This document shows positions 2,818 to 47,572 of a DNA stretch of 64,000 bases, piece after piece (position 1 is the first letter of the stretch; the number at the start of each line of letters is the position of its first letter). A program made the translations under genes and the position numbers. The notes beneath the pieces were generated by a model. It made no database searches, had not been told where the DNA came from, and was given only the letters and a program-made list of their open reading frames with translations. Location of the stretch: NCBI RefSeq assembly GCF_003206615.1, contig NZ_PZJW01000007.1:1-64000 (forward strand), written 5' to 3'. This stretch comes from Salinicola acroporae. GTDB lineage: Bacteria; Pseudomonadota; Gammaproteobacteria; Pseudomonadales; Halomonadaceae.

Positions 2818-4053
2818 ATGCTCAACGAGAAACAGCTGCGGGCCCTAAAGCCGCGAGAAAAAGAGTTCACGCTCTCGGATGACGGGCAGCGTGGCGTCGG
2901 TCGTTTGCAGATCCGGGTCAGGCCCGGCGGCGCCAAGGACTGGCTATACGTCTACTACCTCAACAAGCGCCGACGCAAGGTCGGCATCGGTGCCTATCCA
3001 TCCATCAGTCTCGCCGACGCGCGCCGGAAAGCCGCAGAGCTATCCGGCCACCTCTCTGATGGAGACGACCCGGCAAAGATCGTACGCGAGAAGCGCGCCG
3101 CCAGCGAAACCTCTTACGGCACCCTGGGCGACCTGATCCAAGCATACACCGCCGACATGAAGGAGCGCGGGCGGAACACTGCCGACGAGGTGATGGAGCG
3201 CTGCCAGCGGTACGTGAAAGGGCCCTTCCCTGCCCTGTGGTCGAAACCAGCGAAGGAAGTCACCAGCGGCGATATCCGTGACATCCTCGCCCATCACATC
3301 AAGCGTGGACTGACGACCACCACCAACCGCCTTCGCTCTTGGCTGCACACCGCCTACCAGTACGGGCTGGCGATCGAGCATGATCCGCGGCGCCAGTCCG
3401 TAATCCGCTGGGAGCTGGAGACTAATCCGGTGTCGGTGGTGCCCCGGCAAGCGGATTGGGAGCGCCAGGGCGAGCGCGTCGTTTCCGGTAATGAGCTGTC
3501 AGCGGCTTGGCACGGCCTACCCCAATACTCGCCCGCGGCAATGGCGCTTCGCCTCGTCATGACCACAGCCGGCCAGCGCCCCCAGTCGTTGCTGAGGCTC
3601 CGGGTCGAAAACATCGACTTTGATCAGGGCATCATCGAAATCCCAGCGGCCGCCAGCAAGAACGGCCAGCCCCACGTTGTGCCGCTCAACGAGTATTCGC
3701 GCGACATCCTCACCTACCTTTGCGAGAAGGCGCTGGCTCGTCACTCTCCGCTGCTCTTCGCCAGCCCGAAGAATCCCGACGAGCACATCGGCATTACCTC
3801 CGTGCCTCATCTGTTAGGCAAGTGGCAGCGCGATGGCAAACGGGAAAGGTGGTCGCCGCGGGACGTCAGGCGAACCGCTAAGACGGTGCTTGGGCAACTC
3901 GGCGTCTCGAAGGAAGATCGTGACCGACTGCATGGGCACGCGATGCACGACGTCTCGAGCAGGCATTACGATCGCTACGACTACCTAGCGGAGAAGCGGG
4001 CAGCTATGCAGGTTTGGGCCGCCTGGCTGAATGGAGTCATCAACCAGGTATGA
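2818..4053 (+). CDS. int: P4-type tyrosine integrase of the prophage
   Basis: The 411-residue integrase has an N-terminal DUF4102 arm-binding domain (about 1-90, with the typical KVGIGAYPSISLADAR segment), a core-binding domain (about 100-200) and a catalytic domain. Catalytic residues are Arg254 in AGQRPQ, Lys281 in SKNGQ, Arg351 in SPRDVRRT, His372 in LHGHA and probably Tyr384 in RHYDRYDY, followed by the usual EKRAAM helix. Length is normal for the family. It lies about 150 bp inside attL and reads away from it, with arm-type repeats between. It should catalyse insertion at, and with a partner excision from, the tRNA at 51674. The likely excisionase is at the opposite prophage end. Confidence 0.95.
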   Translation: MLNEKQLRALKPREKEFTLSDDGQRGVGRLQIRVRPGGAKDWLYVYYLNKRRRKVGIGAYPSISLADARRKAAELSGHLSDGDDPAKIVREKRAASETSYGTLGDLIQAYTADMKERGRNTADEVMERCQRYVKGPFPALWSKPAKEVTSGDIRDILAHHIKRGLTTTTNRLRSWLHTAYQYGLAIEHDPRRQSVIRWELETNPVSVVPRQADWERQGERVVSGNELSAAWHGLPQYSPAAMALRLVMTTAGQRPQSLLRLRVENIDFDQGIIEIPAAASKNGQPHVVPLNEYSRDILTYLCEKALARHSPLLFASPKNPDEHIGITSVPHLLGKWQRDGKRERWSPRDVRRTAKTVLGQLGVSKEDRDRLHGHAMHDVSSRHYDRYDYLAEKRAAMQVWAAWLNGVINQV

Positions 4054-37341: not shown

Positions 37342-37640
37342 GCCGACACCTCGTTCTCGCCGCCAGCGAGCGAGCCGGCCAGCTTGTCAGCCTCCAAATC
37401 CATGCGACCAGCACGCTCGGCTAACCAGTCTCGAAAGATGCCCCTCTCAGCAGCGTCCATCGTGATTTCTTGGCTCACGACCTTGCTATGCCGAAAACGG
37501 CGCTTCACCACCACCGGTGTTACCGCCACGAGCTCAAAGTCCATGCCCAGCCAGCCGGTGGCCATCCTCCGGCATGTATCTGCATCGGCCCTCAGGCGAT
37601 CGATGGTTTCCAACTTCTCTCGAATCTGTCGCTCGTTCAC
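37338..37640 (-). CDS. Early-region phage protein, helical
   Basis: The 100-residue protein starts at GTG 37640, overlapping the stop of the Rha gene (GTGA). It begins VNERQIREKLETIDRLRADADTC and has a central beta segment (FELVAVTPVVVKRRFRHSKVV), likely DNA-interacting. No family is recognised. Confidence 0.55.
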   Translation of the reverse strand: MNERQIREKLETIDRLRADADTCRRMATGWLGMDFELVAVTPVVVKRRFRHSKVVSQEITMDAAERGIFRDWLAERAGRMDLEADKLAGSLAGGENEVSA

Positions 37641-38425
37641 GCCGCTTCCTCCCGCAGCACGTCGGCCACGCTCTCCGGCCACTTGAGTTGCTGCACTGCC
37701 ACCCCGTCGCCGTGCTTCTTGCCGGTATCCATCATCCGGCCGCCAGCAGCACGACCGCGCTCGGTCATGACCCAGTAGGCCTTGCCCTTGGCGTCGCGCT
37801 CCTGGCGCTGGTAACCCAGGTCGCGAAGTGCGCGATTGACGGCAACCGCACTCATGTCGAACGGCAGGCCCAGATCGGTCGGTGTGAGATAGCGCTCATT
37901 GACCGGGCTGAGGAGATGCGTTGCGCCCAACTCACCCAGCAGGTTGACCCCGGTACGCTTCTGCACGGCCTGATTGACCGAGAGCAGCCGCATGTTGTCG
38001 TCGAGCCCAAGCGCTCGCGCGGCACCGTCGAGAACGCTGGCGATGGCAGATGCACGGGAGAGAGCCGTCGTGTCATCCATCTGCACTGTTGCCGGCTTCA
38101 TGTGGATCTGGTCGCGCATCTCGTAGAACGTGCGCACCAGTCGTTTCTTGAATGCCCGCACGATGTCGCTGTTGCGCATGAACGTCAGCAGCAGCGTCGA
38201 TTGCGGCTCGTTGAGGCTGGCCACCTCGCGACGCTGGGTTCCACCGGCGGTGGTGAAGGGTACGATTTCAAATCCGACCCTTCCGAAATCCTCCAGGTCT
38301 TCCATGTGCTCGCGCACAAGGCGGATCACCGAGGCGTGGTCACGATCGACACCTTCGGCAATCGCCGCCGTGGTGGTCAGTAGCTCGCCGGAATCACCGG
38401 CAATCACGATATCCGTCATCATCAC
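37637..38425 (-). CDS. Rha-family phage regulatory protein
   Basis: The 262-residue protein has an N-terminal Rha domain (HASVIRLVREHMEDLEDFGRVGFE, EPQSTLLLTFMRNSDIVRAFKKRLVRTFYEMRDQ; about 25-110) and a C-terminal winged-helix-like part (MSAVAVNRALRDLGYQRQ...WVMTERGR). Rha proteins interfere with phage growth in IHF-deficient hosts or act as regulators. Its place after the P-like gene in the early operon fits a phage-specific regulator. Confidence 0.85.
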   Translation of the reverse strand: MMMTDIVIAGDSGELLTTTAAIAEGVDRDHASVIRLVREHMEDLEDFGRVGFEIVPFTTAGGTQRREVASLNEPQSTLLLTFMRNSDIVRAFKKRLVRTFYEMRDQIHMKPATVQMDDTTALSRASAIASVLDGAARALGLDDNMRLLSVNQAVQKRTGVNLLGELGATHLLSPVNERYLTPTDLGLPFDMSAVAVNRALRDLGYQRQERDAKGKAYWVMTERGRAAGGRMMDTGKKHGDGVAVQQLKWPESVADVLREEAA

Positions 38426-41397: not shown

Positions 41398-41661
41398 TCA
41401 GGCGCCGATCTTCTCGGGCGCCGTATCTCGTCTTCCCAGCAAGCGCACTTCCCACACGTCGACCTCCCCCGTCAGGCCCGCCAGCGCCAGCAGCTTGACC
41501 GCGTAATCGGTCTCGCCTTTCAGGTCGCTGTCGGGGAGACGGCCAGCACGCAACCAGTGCGATACGGCACCGGATGTCAGCCCGCATTCGCGCGCGACAC
41601 GGTTTGTGCCACCAGCACGGTCAATGAGCATCGAGAGATTGAGTTCGGGGATTAGTTGCAT
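41398..41661 (-). CDS. Cro-like repressor
   Basis: The 87-residue protein starts MQLIPELNLSMLIDRAGGTNRVA. The helix-turn-helix is TNRVARECGLTSGAVSHWLRAG (about 18-39). A further in-frame ATG lies upstream at 41706 but would fall inside the operator, so I chose 41661. It is first in the minus-strand early operon and divergent from the repressor gene at 41800, the Cro slot. It should bind the dyads at 41671-41716. Confidence 0.8.
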   Translation of the reverse strand: MQLIPELNLSMLIDRAGGTNRVARECGLTSGAVSHWLRAGRLPDSDLKGETDYAVKLLALAGLTGEVDVWEVRLLGRRDTAPEKIGA

Positions 41662-41670
41662 GGAATACGC

Positions 41671-41716
41671 CCAACTGTTGGTCAACAAAGCATACTGAAT
41701 GCTCAACTGTTGAGCA
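41671..41716. promoter_or_regulatory. Right operator: two repressor dyads
   Basis: CCAAC-T-GTTGG (41671-41681) and TGCTCAAC-T-GTTGAGCA (41700-41716, perfect 8+1+8) lie between the Cro-like and CI-like genes, centres 32 bp apart. A further dyad GAATGC-TGA-GCATTC (41764-41778) lies nearer the repressor start. Similar dyads recur at 43653 and 43684. Confidence 0.8.
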
Positions 41717-41799
41717 ACTTATGTATTGGAAGCGCAATATAGGCACGGTCGACGCAACTGGTAGAATGCTGAGCATTCGCTAAACCAAGGACCGCGAAG

Positions 41800-42300
41800 A
41801 TGGCTGACGAGCCGTTCAAGGTGGCAAGCCCGGAGTGGGCCAAGAAGGAATTTCCGAAGCGTCTGAAGATGCTCGCTGAGGCGAAGTACCGGAAGTCAGG
41901 GAACTCGAGCTACGGCTGGCAGACGCAGCTTGCCAATGAACTGGTGATCGACAAAAGCAACGTGTCGCGCTGGATGCGGGGCTCGCTGCCAGGCGTTGAG
42001 AATCTGCTACGGATAGCCGAGCTTCTGGAGTGCGATCCGGCGTACCTCGTTGGCAACGATGACGCACCCTCTGGCGATTTTTCGCAGCAGGCGCTGGACG
42101 AACGCATACCCAGAGATCTGCTTCTGCACGTGCTGGCGATGATGGCAGAGCTGCGCTCCATCTCGCGCGATGTCAGCGACCAGCAGTTTGCCAAGGCGAC
42201 GGTGGAACTGCTCGATCGCGTCGCCGAGCGCCCGGAAATGAACGAGAACGAGATGACCGGACTCGGGCTGGCGTTGCTGAAAAAAACTGGAGGCGAGTAG
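41800..42300 (+). CDS. CI-type prophage repressor lacking a peptidase domain
   Basis: The 166-residue protein has an N-terminal HTH (SYGWQTQLANELVIDKSNVSRWMRGSLPGVENLLRIAELLECDPAYLVG, about 38-86). The C-terminal part (about 95-166) is all-helical and has no S24 peptidase Ser/Lys motifs, so it cannot self-cleave with RecA as lambda CI does. AAGGA precedes the ATG. It is divergent from cro and should silence both early operons through the dyads on its two sides. Induction must come from another factor. Confidence 0.85.
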   Translation: MADEPFKVASPEWAKKEFPKRLKMLAEAKYRKSGNSSYGWQTQLANELVIDKSNVSRWMRGSLPGVENLLRIAELLECDPAYLVGNDDAPSGDFSQQALDERIPRDLLLHVLAMMAELRSISRDVSDQQFAKATVELLDRVAERPEMNENEMTGLGLALLKKTGGE

Positions 42301-42360: not shown

Positions 42361-43257
42361 ATGACGATAGCGTGCCCACCCGGATCAATGTCAGCTATGG
42401 GCCTGAGGTATGAAGGCCTCTCTTCTGACCGACATATTCTTGATAGCCTTGAGTACGCTAAATCGCTTGAAGGGAGCTCAAGGATCTATCGGCTCGTGGC
42501 CCATTACTGCTTGCACGGTGAAGTGTTGAGGCCACGCTCACGATCTGATCTTCGTTGCTACACCCTGCCCGCAAAGTCTGGCTCATACGAAGCACTACTG
42601 GTTATACTTACAGCTGCTGCGCATGAGATCCCCGCCTTCTCAGACGTCTACAAGTCAGCACTCGACTGGTTGATATCCAAGCTGGTGGGTTTCATCAAAG
42701 ACAAGCTTTCGGGGCAAGGTGACGTGAACGAGCTCGTAGAAGTTATCAAGCTTCAGGCTGAGAAAAATTCTGAGCTGAATACGATTCTTGCCAACGGCTT
42801 GATAAAGTCCAACGAGCGGCATGCGGATCTGAGTGAACGCCTTCTGGATACCCTGCCTTCACTTATCGCTGCAGCTCAATCTGGCATGCGAAAGGCCGTC
42901 GCGCCGGTTGGTTCAAGCTGCAGTACGATGACTCAATTTCATGACCTGCCTGAACCAGTAAGCGTCTCTGAGCCAGAGGCTATGGCGATCAGATCGCAGG
43001 AGGAGTTAGTGGTGGGCAAGCCTGGACCGTTCATCGTCAATCGGATTCATTCACTTAGCCTCGATACAGGTGCCTGCACAATCGAGATTGAGGGTTTCGA
43101 AGGCCTCGTGAACGGCAAGGTCGATGACATCGGGTTGAAACAGCCCGGCAACCCCTATTCACGTGCGCTTGATGCCCACTCCCCACTGAGGGTGAGGGGT
43201 CGTCCAGTGTTCAAGCAGGATCAACTGCACAAATTATTTATCACAGAATCGGAATAG
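42361..43257 (+). CDS. Immunity-region protein of unknown function
   Basis: The 298-residue soluble protein is encoded just after the repressor on the same strand and may share its lysogenic transcript. The N-terminal half begins GLRYEGLSSDRHILDSLEYAKSLEG and is followed by helical KSALDWLISKLVGFIKDKLSG. The C-terminal ~80 residues are beta-rich (FIVNRIHSLSLDTGACTIEIEGFEGLVNG...SPLRVRGRPVF). The start may instead be an internal Met (residue 10 or 13). I do not recognise a characterised family. Lysogenic location suggests immunity or superinfection exclusion. A strong terminator follows. Confidence 0.65.
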   Translation: MTIACPPGSMSAMGLRYEGLSSDRHILDSLEYAKSLEGSSRIYRLVAHYCLHGEVLRPRSRSDLRCYTLPAKSGSYEALLVILTAAAHEIPAFSDVYKSALDWLISKLVGFIKDKLSGQGDVNELVEVIKLQAEKNSELNTILANGLIKSNERHADLSERLLDTLPSLIAAAQSGMRKAVAPVGSSCSTMTQFHDLPEPVSVSEPEAMAIRSQEELVVGKPGPFIVNRIHSLSLDTGACTIEIEGFEGLVNGKVDDIGLKQPGNPYSRALDAHSPLRVRGRPVFKQDQLHKLFITESE

Positions 43258-43275
43258 GTTTTCTGGATTTTCATG

Positions 43276-43297
43276 AACCCGCTACGGCGGGTTTTTT
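43276..43297 (+). terminator. Intrinsic terminator of the repressor transcript
   Basis: AACCCGC-TACG-GCGGGTT followed by a T-run, 19 bp after the stop of the 42361 gene. Confidence 0.9.
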
Positions 43298-43384
43298 ATT
43301 GCCTGTCAGTCACATACGTTGTGAATAGCCAATCTCCTACACGTTCAACGGTTCCATCCGCCAGCCGCATCGCTATACTGGTTA

Positions 43385-43404
43385 TGCTGTATATATATCC
43401 AGTA
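43385..43404 (+). promoter_or_regulatory. LexA (SOS) box in the immunity region
   Basis: TGCTGTATATATATCCAGTA matches the LexA consensus at 18 of 20 positions (CTG-N10-CAG). It lies 20 bp before the GTG of the small gene at 43424. Confidence 0.85.
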
Positions 43405-43423
43405 ACAAGAAGCGAGGTGTGTT

Positions 43424-43567
43424 GTGACTTCCAATCCCGACCAGGATGAACGTCTCCGTCGCGCAAGCGACCGCCTACGCCAACTCGAACGCTCGGACCC
43501 CACGCTGAGCCCCCTCCTAGTGTTGATCGTTGCAGTTAAGGGCAGAGAGGTCCGAAACCCGGGCTGA
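43424..43567 (+). CDS. 47-residue SOS-controlled protein, candidate antirepressor
   Basis: The small gene starts at GTG with GCGAGG upstream. It lies between a LexA box and an intrinsic terminator, so it forms its own short SOS transcript of about 200 nt. The product has a charged helix (DQDERLRRASDRLRQLERSD) and a hydrophobic stretch (PLLVLIVAVKG). It shows no similarity to DinI or Tum that I can see. Next to a non-cleavable repressor, the logic of Gifsy- and 186-type phages suggests a LexA-controlled antirepressor. The coding call is less certain than the transcription unit; an sRNA is possible. Confidence 0.55.
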   Translation: MTSNPDQDERLRRASDRLRQLERSDPTLSPLLVLIVAVKGREVRNPG

Positions 43568-43601
43568 GCCTGCCAAATCGCTACCGAAATCAGGACTTGA
43601 T

Positions 43602-43631
43602 GCCAGCGGAGAGAATCTTCGCTGGCTTTTT
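43602..43631 (+). terminator. Intrinsic terminator of the SOS-controlled unit
   Basis: GCCAGCG (43602-43608) pairs with CGCTGGC (43620-43626), followed by TTTTT. It is placed 35 bp after the 43424 gene and before the left operator. Confidence 0.85.
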
Positions 43632-43645
43632 GTTGCGCAACTCTG

Positions 43646-43691
43646 TTGACACTGTTGAACGCTTAGGATTAACTAAGCGCAACAGTTGATC
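43646..43691. promoter_or_regulatory. Left operator: two repressor dyads
   Basis: Dyads resembling those at 41671-41716 are centred at 43653 (GACAC-T-GTTGAAC, imperfect) and 43684 (CGCAAC-A-GTTGATC), 31 bp apart. Between them CGCTTAG-GATTAA-CTAAGCG (43660-43679) is a perfect dyad. They precede the plus-strand early operon. Confidence 0.7.
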
Positions 43692-43706
43692 AACAAGAGT
43701 CAAGTG

Positions 43707-44048
43707 ATGAACAACCTTACTCCTCGACAAGCATCAATCACCACACTGGTTGCTCAGGGCTTGTCGGCCAAGCAGATCGCCGTGATTGCCGGCATCACCG
43801 AGAACACCGCCCGCATCACGCTGCAGCAGGCCCGCGAGCGTGTTGGCGCTAGAACGCTTGCCCAGCTGGTGGCGCTGGCTATCTCAAAGGGCTGGATAGC
43901 CCCGCTACTGCTTGCCATTACGGTCAGCGCTATTTCGCCCGACGTTCACATGCAGCGCCTGCGCTCCAGCGGCAGCCGCCAGACGATCAGCATCACCAAG
44001 CTGAGCCGTCGGCAGGAGAGCCACGAATTCTCGGGGATCGCGGCATGA
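43707..44048 (+). CDS. LuxR-type HTH protein, first gene of the plus-strand early operon
   Basis: The 113-residue protein starts MNNLTPRQASITTLVAQGLSAKQIAVIAGITENTARITLQQARERVG, a GerE/LuxR helix-turn-helix (about 4-50), followed by a hydrophobic stretch (WIAPLLLAITVSAIS) and a basic C terminus. There is no sensor domain. Being first behind the left operator, it could regulate the operon. The ATG at 43707 is preferred over TTG at 43686, which lies in the operator. Confidence 0.65.
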   Translation: MNNLTPRQASITTLVAQGLSAKQIAVIAGITENTARITLQQARERVGARTLAQLVALAISKGWIAPLLLAITVSAISPDVHMQRLRSSGSRQTISITKLSRRQESHEFSGIAA

Positions 44049-44948: not shown

Positions 44949-45227
44949 ATGCCGATCTACCTGCCGACCCGGCGGCATTGCCGATGCCGGGTGTGCGGCG
45001 CCCGACAGACGAAACCCATGCACCCCGACGAATACGTGCGCGGGCCGCGGTGCCGCAACTGCCACCGAGTCAACACGCTGCGCATCGACAAGTGGGCCGA
45101 CGCCAAGCCCTGGCGCCAGCAGGTCTGCCGCTGCGACGGCTACCACTTCCCGCACCGGCGCGGCTCGCTCTGGTGCTACCACAACCCAGCTTACCCGGTA
45201 GACGAAGACCGGCGGCTGTTTGCCTGA
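44949..45227 (+). CDS. Zinc-binding early phage protein
   Basis: The 92-residue protein has CRCRVCG near the N terminus, CRNC in the middle and CRCDGYHFPHRRG near the C terminus, enough Cys/His for one or two zinc sites. Basic residues are abundant, suggesting nucleic-acid contact. The ATG at 44949 has CGGAG upstream. It is the first gene after the operon terminator. Short Cys-rich proteins ending in DGYHFPHR are known from phage early regions, without defined function. Confidence 0.65.
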   Translation: MPIYLPTRRHCRCRVCGARQTKPMHPDEYVRGPRCRNCHRVNTLRIDKWADAKPWRQQVCRCDGYHFPHRRGSLWCYHNPAYPVDEDRRLFA

Positions 45228-45258
45228 GCGCATGGGAAGACCCTGGAGATACGACAAC

Positions 45259-46614
45259 ATGACCAGTCTTGCACTCAACCTATGCCATGAGCAGACGGCG
45301 GATAACTTCGCTGGTGCCGGCGGCGCATCGGAGGGAATCGAGCAGGCCCTGGGCCGGCCTGTGGATCTCGCGATCAACCACGACGCCGTGGCTATTGCCG
45401 CGCACACTGCCAACCACCCCGGCACAAGGCATGCCGTCGCCGACGTCTGGGACATCAACCCCGACGAGGCCACAGGTGGCCAGCCAGTGGGTCTGGCGTG
45501 GTTCTCGCCCGATTGCCGACACCACTCCAAGGCCAAGGGCGGGCGCCCGGTGAGCAAGAGCGTGCGCGGCCTGGCCTGGGTGTCAGTGCGCTGGGCAGCG
45601 CGGGTGAAACCGCGTGCGATCATTCTGGAGAACGTCGAGGAGTTCCTCGACTGGGGCCCCCTGGTCAAGAACGCCAAGGGCCACCTGGTGCCAGACCCGA
45701 AGCGCAAGGGACAGATGTTCCGCGGCTTTGTACGCGCGCTCCAGCGCCACGGTTACGAGGTCGACTGGCGCATCCTACGAGCATGCGACTACGGCACGCC
45801 GACAATTCGTAAGCGGCTGTTCCTGATAGCGCGGCGCGACAGCCTGCCGATCTCCTGGCCGAAGGCCACCCACGGAGACCCGGCGGCACCGGCTGTCCAG
45901 CGCGGCAAGCTGGCGCCCTACCGCACCGCCGCAGAGTGCATTGACTGGTCGATACCGTGCCCCAGCATCTTCGGCCGGAAAAAAACGCTTGCAGCTGCCA
46001 CATTGGACCGTATCGCCAATGGCGTGATGCGCTTTGTCGTCCAGGCATCAGACCCATTCATAGCGCCGGTAATCGCTAGCGCTGAAGATCAGTCGTGCAA
46101 GGTCGCAGCTTTTGTGGCCAAGCATTACACCGGCGTGATCGGTGACGACTTACGCAAGCCGCTACCCACCATCACCGCCACCGACCATAACGGGCTCGTC
46201 ACCGTATCGCTTACGCCTGCCGCGCAAGCCAGTGGTGCCAAGCCAGCTCTGGTAGCCGCTTTCCTCGCACCGTACTACGGCACCGGGTCAGGCGAGACAG
46301 GGCGAGATCTGCGCAAGCCGCTCCCCACCATCACTACTACTGATCGCTTCCAGTTGGTCACCGTCACGATCGATGGCGAGAGCTACACCATTACAGACAT
46401 TGGCACGCGCATGTTCCAGCCACACGAGCTTGCGGCCGCCCAAGGCTTCCCTGCCAGCTACCAGTTCGCAGAGATCGACGGCAAGCCGGTGCCCAAGCGC
46501 ACTCAGGTGCGCCTGATCGGCAACAGCGTGTGCCCGCCCCTGGCCCGCGCTCTGGTCGAGGCCAACTTCACCCACGAGCAGAAATTCATGGCCGCGCCGG
46601 CGAACGCCGCGTGA
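45259..46614 (+). CDS. DNA (cytosine-5) methyltransferase, phage type
   Basis: The 451-residue enzyme has motif I DNFAGAGGASEG (about 15-26), the catalytic loop FSPDCRHHSKAKGG with Cys86 (phage-type variant of PPC), motif VI ENVEEF (about 125), and motif X-like RLIGNSVCPPLARAL near the C terminus. A target-recognition region lies between about 220 and 380 with two repeats of LRKPLPTIT-TTD. No restriction enzyme gene is nearby, so it is a solitary methylase that probably protects phage DNA from host restriction. Its start follows an ATG with GGAG upstream. Confidence 0.92.
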   Translation: MTSLALNLCHEQTADNFAGAGGASEGIEQALGRPVDLAINHDAVAIAAHTANHPGTRHAVADVWDINPDEATGGQPVGLAWFSPDCRHHSKAKGGRPVSKSVRGLAWVSVRWAARVKPRAIILENVEEFLDWGPLVKNAKGHLVPDPKRKGQMFRGFVRALQRHGYEVDWRILRACDYGTPTIRKRLFLIARRDSLPISWPKATHGDPAAPAVQRGKLAPYRTAAECIDWSIPCPSIFGRKKTLAAATLDRIANGVMRFVVQASDPFIAPVIASAEDQSCKVAAFVAKHYTGVIGDDLRKPLPTITATDHNGLVTVSLTPAAQASGAKPALVAAFLAPYYGTGSGETGRDLRKPLPTITTTDRFQLVTVTIDGESYTITDIGTRMFQPHELAAAQGFPASYQFAEIDGKPVPKRTQVRLIGNSVCPPLARALVEANFTHEQKFMAAPANAA

Positions 46615-46636: not shown

Positions 46637-47572
46637 ATGTGGTTCAAGAACGCCCACCTATTCCGAGTCCATGACGCAGACATCATCGAGCTCGACGCCC
46701 TCGAAGCCGCCCTGGCCGAGTTCGCCTTCCGGCCGGTGTCGCCGCGAGAAGCTCGCCGGGTCGGCTGGACGACGCCGGCCGGCAAGCGCAGCCAGGTCCG
46801 CGTCCACGAGATCCAGGGGCACCGCCTGATCGCGATGCTGCGCCAGGAGCGTCTGCTCCCCGCCGCCGTGGTCAATGACGAAGTCAGCGAGCGCGCCGAG
46901 GCCAGGGAACTTGCCGAAGGCCAGCCGCTCTCCCGGCGGGAACGTCAGCTTCTCAAGGAGCAGGTGCTCGAGGAGCTGCTACCCCAGGCGTTCACCCGCA
47001 CCCAGCGTGTCGAGCTCTGGTGGGACACCACCCGCCACCTGATCGGCATCAACGCCTCCAGCCGCAAGCGTGCCGAGGAGGTGCTCGACCTGCTCCGCCA
47101 GACGCTGGGGTCGCTCAAAGTCACCCCGCTGGCCACTAAGACGCCGCCATCACGCGGCATGACGGCCTGGCTATCCGATCCCGGCCAACGCCCCGCCAGC
47201 CTGCTGCTGGGTGACCGGGTCGAGCTACGCGCCGCTGAGGATGAAGGCGTGATCGGCGCACGCTCGGTCGACCTCGACAGCGAGGAGATGCAGAGCCTGC
47301 TCGAAGGCGGCCGCCAAGTGTCCCGTCTGAGCCTGGGCAGCGAAGGCCAGCTTCGCGCTGTGCTGCATGACGACCTCGCGCTCAAGTCCCTGCAGTTCGA
47401 CGATGCCCTACTCGACGAAGCCAGCCAGACCGACGACGGCGACGACCCCGTGGTCAGCCTCGAAACCGACTTCGCCCTGATGACCGGCGCCCTCGTCACC
47501 TTCACCAACCAGCTGATCGAGTGGCTGGGCGGCGAGGCCGATCCGGCAGCGTCGATGGAGAAGACGCCATGA
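46637..47572 (+). CDS. rdgC: RdgC-like nucleoid/recombination protein
   Basis: The 311-residue protein matches RdgC: MWFKNAHLFRV start, VGWTTPAG near 45, QGHRLIAMLRQERLLPAAVVNDEV near 60-82, and LWWDTTRHLIGINASSRKRAEEVLDLLRQ in the middle. RdgC forms a ring on DNA and antagonises RecA loading. It has an excellent AAGGAGG ribosome site. Carrying RdgC in an early operon suggests the phage limits RecA action or protects replication intermediates. Confidence 0.93.
   Translation: MWFKNAHLFRVHDADIIELDALEAALAEFAFRPVSPREARRVGWTTPAGKRSQVRVHEIQGHRLIAMLRQERLLPAAVVNDEVSERAEARELAEGQPLSRRERQLLKEQVLEELLPQAFTRTQRVELWWDTTRHLIGINASSRKRAEEVLDLLRQTLGSLKVTPLATKTPPSRGMTAWLSDPGQRPASLLLGDRVELRAAEDEGVIGARSVDLDSEEMQSLLEGGRQVSRLSLGSEGQLRAVLHDDLALKSLQFDDALLDEASQTDDGDDPVVSLETDFALMTGALVTFTNQLIEWLGGEADPAASMEKTP

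Follow-up and report, generated by a model that had tools for sequence, protein, structure and literature searches.

The closest described counterparts of the element treated here are the LexA-controlled small antirepressors of the Gifsy prophages, GftA, GfoA and GfhA, which release their repressor from the DNA by binding to it (Lemire 2011, PMC3121763). According to that paper the LT2 Gifsy-1 and Gifsy-2 repressor is a protein of 136 amino acids (aa) that carries no cleavage motif, and the start codon of GftA is GUG. The element in question is a short unit at positions 43385 to 43631 of a 64-kb stretch of Salinicola acroporae DNA (contig NZ_PZJW01000007.1, positions 1 to 64,000; hereafter the window), in which a LexA box precedes a 47-aa gene and an intrinsic terminator closes the transcript. 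As in the Gifsy case, an apparently LexA-controlled small gene with a GUG-type start goes with a short repressor that has no cleavage motif. Unlike Gifsy, where the antirepressor gene lies outside the immunity region, the unit is part of that region, placed after the repressor gene and ahead of the left operator, and several dissimilar protein classes share the slot. We propose that the unit is probably an SOS-induced antirepressor cassette that would disable a non-cleavable repressor.

SOS/LexA control directed against a non-cleavable repressor is likewise a property of coliphage 186 Tum and of the N15 antirepressor. Tiny, mutually dissimilar proteins that inactivate their cognate cI are described for phage VP882 (Qtip, 79 aa) and for the TF-smORF modules of Vibrio phages 72/63 (smORF72, 171 nucleotides (nt)) in PMC10432266 and PMC11323111. 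According to the former, the divergent gene of a TF-smORF module is switched on by a phage transcription factor independently of the SOS response, and non-proteolytic repressors lay outside the scope of the study. The present unit is like these modules in the tiny size and the low mutual similarity of its proteins; it is unlike them in having a LexA box as its input, a repressor without an S24 peptidase domain (S24-less) and, as its upstream neighbour, a co-directed DUF7946/DUF7947 gene. No published description of such a unit was found in the literature searched. The Tum protein of 186 is larger, and the 186 and N15 proteins and gene positions differ from those of the unit. In SPC32H the Ant-Rep system sets a LexA-type antirepressor against a repressor that has no S24 domain. 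The name SPC32H was absent from the 14 PDB sequences that matched our repressor profile; the small-protein profile had a single weak PDB match, which does not bear that name either. The SOS-antirepressor logic is already known (Gifsy, 186, N15); judged by sequence, what looks new is the protein families, the position inside the immunity region and the modular build of the unit from a head and a body.

The small gene, its LexA box and the repressor

A first, sequence-only reading of this locus had pointed to a near-consensus LexA box upstream of a 47-codon GTG gene and to an intrinsic terminator after it, and all of these elements were recovered. The pattern scan places the box, TGCTGTATATATATCCAGTA, at 43385-43404 on the forward strand; it matches 18 of 20 positions, with two mismatches to TACTGTATATATATACAGTA, and its position is kept in relatives. 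Nineteen nt separate its end from the GTG at 43424, from which the frame runs for 47 aa to a stop codon at 43565-43567 (gene 43424-43567, forward strand), and a terminator of 11 pairs and a T run follows at 43602-43626, with a tail to 43631. A possible −10 element of the promoter, TATACT, was seen by eye at 43374-43379 (forward strand), and TATACT overlaps the box in the related loci L044 and L077. The box is the only site in the window with at most three mismatches, and none of 100 shuffles gave any. Five such sites exist in the host genome (4,372,580 bases), among which the box at 43385 ranks second, and the reversed control pattern gave none. The box resembles the SOS sites of the host: one lies directly 5' of recA, CTGGATACAATTCCAG lies upstream of lexA, and CTGTATAAACAACCAG, whose right arm is CCAG as in the box at 43385, belongs to a gene that is recN-like by eye. 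Two further near-consensus boxes are present in the host, at G000:C30:69807-69826 and G000:C31:35333-35352.

It could be argued that the box is bound by the phage repressor or by another phage regulator rather than by LexA, as it stands within the immunity region and as CTGTN8ACAG motifs in the 5 kb of some loci with S24 repressors (see below) may be operators. This seems to us very improbable. The box matches host SOS boxes (recA, recN-like), its motif is retained across the classes of unit described below, which differ in the promoter region ahead of the downstream luxR-like gene, and the operators of the repressor are of a different motif. The latter, CAAC.GTTG, occurs three times in the window and is confined to positions 41672, 41704 and 43680, which places the right operator region (OR, 41672-41718, with two CAACTGTTG sites) and the left operator (OL, 43680-43695, CAACAGTTGATCAACA), the latter just downstream of the unit's terminator.

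The repressor at 41800-42300 (forward strand, 166 aa) had been read as lacking an S24 peptidase, and this is confirmed on two counts: Pfam matches only helix-turn-helix (HTH) families, with HTH_3 over the cut-off and no S24, and the AlphaFold2 model contains no strand (mean predicted local distance difference test (pLDDT) score 80.8). The protein is thus described as an HTH followed by a short all-helical C-terminal domain, which is conserved in four relatives. A Foldseek search with the model gave no match at E <= 0.001, the top rows being HTH proteins.

Searches with the small protein itself returned next to nothing. Against 97 genomes, its own included, only its own copy was found below E = 0.25; there was no match in phage DNA and none better than E = 3 among phage proteins; Pfam and PHROGs gave nothing over the cut-off, PADLOC nothing, and seven relatives had no Pfam match. 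The earlier remark, made by eye, was that the gene resembles neither the Gifsy antirepressors nor 186 Tum; in these collections no sequence relation to any known antirepressor emerged, the Gifsy sequences themselves not being compared directly. A scan of genome contigs with the 53-residue frame of the gene gave no relative. The same frame has one useful relative, in a metagenome viral contig (L039/L041, 83% over 42 residues), and a 100% match is the record of the window's own prophage, with identical letters over the compared stretch. More relatives were reached through neighbouring genes.

Occurrence of the unit and repressor type

The first such neighbour is the LuxR/sigma-region-4-like gene at 43707-44048 (forward strand), the first of the rightward early operon (GerE and Sigma70_r4_2 over the cut-off; phrog_3282). 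This anchor matches 145 of 275 genomes of the family Halomonadaceae at E <= 1e-6, the weaker matches being mostly long frames, as in ordinary LuxR proteins. The survey, which is confined to this one family and counts related prophages separately, covers 60 loci: 57 places listed for the anchor at E <= 3.5e-12 (four of them already obtained, the other 53 retrieved together with at most 5 kb of upstream sequence) and the viral contigs L041, L042 and L043. L127 is the same prophage as L043, and L126 is very like L042, although not letter-identical.

At 44 of the 60 loci a home-made profile recognises an S24-domain repressor upstream, and Pfam agrees in 10 of 10 cases tested, nine of them among the weaker matches. 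None of these 44 has a LexA box in the 700 bp before luxR. Eleven loci do have a box, with a score of 16-18/20 and 304-361 bp upstream of luxR, and an open small open reading frame (ORF) follows it in each; their repressors are all short (153-180 aa) and S24-less. The 16 loci in which no S24 was found comprise these 11 together with L145, L149 and L151, L162, which is cut by a contig end, and L175, in which no repressor was recognised. In the 700 bp before luxR, none of the 48 other loci (L162 left out) has a site that scores above 14/20, and among 3300 shuffles of the 11 positive regions 10 gave a best site of at least 15/20. Fisher's test on 11/14 versus 0/42 gives p = 2.4e-9, with L042/L126 and L043/L127 counted once and uncorrected for shared descent. 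Two candidates, L045 and L046, were dropped, the CTGTN8ACAG site lying inside a gene of another operon.

The second neighbour is the repressor. Its profile matches strongly in 4 of the 275 family genomes, the window's own included, and repressors with a C-terminal domain of the window's type are those of L041, L044 (= G264), L077 (G118) and L078 (G053). A repressor-led scan of viral contigs found box and small ORF at six of six loci; four of these were additions to the set, and the other two, L182 and L183, duplicate L169 and L148. Altogether, the repressor profiles extend the set to 19 loci, and box and small ORF are present in 17 of them; in these 17 the small proteins are 47-61 aa long and the box ends 16-27 nt before the start codon without exception. 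At E <= 1e-5 the profile matches 27 genomes, 23 of them weakly (3e-7 to 1e-5, loci L054-L076); most of these loci are by eye chromosomal XRE regulators without a box and were set aside, and L063 is of the L151 type. L062 (G233, reverse strand 1477-2177), in which an S24-less repressor is accompanied by a 15/20 box, a terminator and an ORF of 30 codons that has a good ribosome site, is tentatively put forward as a candidate fourth class. The class-B profile gave nothing in 369 genomes in a class-level search, which had no positive control, and order-level searches of thin samples returned only the own genome (1/390) or same-family genomes (2/390).

Small-protein classes and their repressors

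Three classes of small protein can be told apart; they show no obvious similarity to one another, and each is paired with a repressor type of its own. Class A consists of five loci (the window, L041, L044, L077 and L078), in each of which LexA box and small ORF occupy the corresponding position. Class B has nine: L148 (= L183), L169 (= L182), L170, L171, L172, L179, L180, L181 and the phage records PP438427/OM868080, which are identical over 5,456 compared bases. Class C has four, L160, L184, L188 and Halomonas phage QHHSV-1; the L188 and QHHSV-1 repressors are 41-53% identical to the other class-C repressors and 26-35% to those of class B. Close kin within the set are L160/L184 and L170/L180/JY37. 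The unit also occurs in phages JY37/Yong-L1-251 and in class-C L188, where the sequence inspected downstream of it showed no luxR-like gene. Signatures recognised by eye are RLxxLExxDxxLxP in class A (loosest in L077 and L078), RRxIAxxxDxxxY near the C-terminus in class B (looser in L148) and AFD[LR] in class C. The boxes of L170, L171, L172, L179, L180 and L190 read CTGTATATAAATACAC or close variants, and TATACAG follows in five of the six.

The unit appears to be built of separable parts. A leader with TGAGGGGTGGCCAAA, together with the start region, is common to L077 and L078 of class A and to L148 and L169 of class B, and is absent from the window, L041, L044 and the L170-type loci. Between L077 and L148 the leaders are identical at 82/93 positions (88%), whereas the ORF proteins agree at 13/63; other between-class protein pairs range from 10/61 to 10/68, and within-class values are 18/59 (A) and 21/64 (B). 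As shared leaders precede dissimilar proteins in different classes, the coding part follows the repressor class more than it follows the promoter.

This bears on a different function for the product. Bacteria have LexA-controlled small proteins of other function, and the small protein could be an SOS-induced effector (of division, nuclease or membrane type) that targets the host or the phage cycle and merely travels with the immunity type; a hydrophobic stretch in the window's copy, LSPLLVLIV, would suit such a role. We hold this to be improbable, because the slot has no LexA box in the 44 S24-repressor loci that have the same neighbour gene, and because the ORF body switches with the repressor class behind a shared leader, while an unselective effector need not follow the repressor.

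The sequence-only reading had also allowed that the unit might encode an RNA. The transcript is short (about 250 nt) and its terminator strong, as would suit a regulatory RNA in which the ORF is incidental, yet the pattern of change in class B speaks against this. In nine divergent pairs among L170, L171, L172, L179 and L180 the proportion of synonymous differences (pS) is 0.60-0.79 and that of nonsynonymous differences (pN) 0.17-0.38, the pairs overlapping and pS being near saturation; L169/L181 give 0.69 and 0.32, and the ratio of nonsynonymous to synonymous rates (dN/dS) of L170/JY37 is 0.19, on few changes. Since synonymous change dominates in the divergent pairs, there is a strong case that the class-B product is a protein under purifying selection and not an RNA; for the window's own copy the case for a protein is indirect. 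Six class-B relatives keep the 47-codon frame, although frames were picked as open, so that openness proves little. Rfam has no family over the unit, with two sub-threshold matches upstream of it at 43220-43297, and the chance that the unit is a regulatory RNA appears to us very small.

Across 16 loci, small-protein similarity correlates with that of the repressor C-terminal domain (r = 0.90), the HTH (0.80) and luxR (0.90), the partial correlations being 0.51, −0.24 and 0.54, respectively. In the window, the HTH is nearer to that of L077 and L078, and L041 is the nearer one for the C-terminal domain, for the small protein and for luxR. The C-terminal domain of the repressor as the target would fit these correlations; luxR linkage would fit them equally well.

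Several observations weigh against an antirepressor cassette tied to S24-less repressors. In the correlations just given, luxR accounts for the similarity of the small proteins no less well than the C-terminal domain (0.54 versus 0.51), and some of the tracking may therefore reflect simple linkage. The class-C repressor of phage QHHSV-1 is accompanied by a related small ORF, QHH_09 (39 aa), but by no LexA box, and L189, which has a stop in the repressor frame and is unclassed, has no box either. L145, L149 and L151 have another kind of S24-less repressor (Pfam HTH only) and no box before luxR. A 15/20 site does occur farther away in the 5 kb of two S24 loci, at −1287 in L166 and at −4541 in L176; these sites, like the CTGTN8ACAG motifs of S24 loci, lie outside the 700 bp before luxR and were not counted as units. 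The right half-site of the L170-type class-B boxes is CAC instead of CAG. As to coding, dN/dS is 0.75 for L170/L180 (few changes), 1.04 and hence neutral for L160/L184 (17 changes) and 0.61 for the window and L041, a weak value from one pair. Finally, the window's small protein departs from that of L041 after about residue 30. The alignment with L041 has one additional T in the window copy, which might point to a frameshift there, but no change is proposed; past the extra T the two diverge completely, and the in-frame window protein shares 'PLL' with L077.

Some details of these loci may be added. QHHSV-1 is described as virulent in PMC10580944, and the stretch with its repressor and small gene is KX879752.1 (L192) 2869-3667. 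The L145, L149 and L151 repressors are frames of 235-259 aa with a gene alongside that looks HipA-like by eye. The 15/20 site of L166 precedes the repressor gene of that locus by about 300 bp.

On balance we lean towards a more general picture, in which Halomonadaceae prophages have a plug-in SOS sensor made of a head (promoter, LexA box and ribosome site) and an exchangeable body of 30-61 aa that fits the non-cleavable repressor. There would then be at least three, perhaps four, dissimilar families of mini-antirepressors (A to C and L062), and the slot would be filled only where the repressor cannot cut itself.

Proposed mechanism, setting and significance

The proposal first made for this locus, a LexA-controlled antirepressor against a non-cleavable repressor, gains comparative support from the 17 of 19 repressor relatives with box and small ORF, the 0 of 44 S24 loci, the selection in class B and the matching of classes. 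In the lysogen, the small gene would be silenced by host LexA, with OR and OL occupied by the S24-less repressor. DNA damage would remove LexA, and the helical protein of about 50 aa would be made. It would then bind the repressor, most likely through the helical C-terminal domain of the latter, and the repressor would leave its operators, so that both early operons could start. We infer that LexA binds the box, that the unit is induced, that its product contacts the repressor directly and that the C-terminal domain is the target. The class-A protein is predicted, from five sequences, to be a two-helix hairpin (mean pLDDT 87.8). Adaptor-type degradation of repressors is known for other mobile elements, and a bare hairpin of this size would also be compatible with a protein that needs ClpXP or another protease, or serves as an adaptor for degradation of the repressor, rather than sequestering it; we consider this variant rather unlikely.

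The antirepressor cassette would act within an immunity region of lambda-like layout: a leftward Cro-like gene, the operators, the rightward repressor, a cargo gene, the unit, the left operator and the rightward operon. The Cro-like HTH gene (41398-41706, reverse strand), the first of the leftward early operon, is YdaS/P22_Cro-like below the Pfam cut-off and has a phrog_35 repressor match. The unit does lie between the repressor gene and the left operator, as first read, but not next to the former: a variable cargo gene (42361-43257, forward strand, 298 aa, DUF7946/DUF7947 in Pfam) intervenes, with a terminator of its own at 43275-43294 (forward strand; terminator scan) that ends the repressor-side transcript. 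The cargo slot holds other genes in L041, L077 and L078, including, by eye, a HicA/HicB-like pair in L077. Farther out in the window, a Phage_pRha regulator lies in the leftward replication operon (37637-38425), and a prophage RdgC homologue (46637-47572) adjoins a DNA cytosine methylase gene (45220-46614).

Small genes of this kind are easily overlooked, as in two 'Synechococcus' phage records (L190/L191; PP438427.1 and OM868080.1), in which the small ORF is unannotated and no feature on the correct strand covers it. The repressor of these records is 86% identical to that of the Halomonadaceae prophage L171, and the host stated for them may deserve a check. Three classes of repressor and three of small protein, with a leader shared by two, provide ready cognate and non-cognate pairs for asking by what means a protein of this size inactivates a repressor and in what way specificity evolves. 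The rule suggested by these prophages is that temperate phages whose repressors do not cleave themselves would keep a separate SOS input, and that this input can be a protein of about 50 residues.
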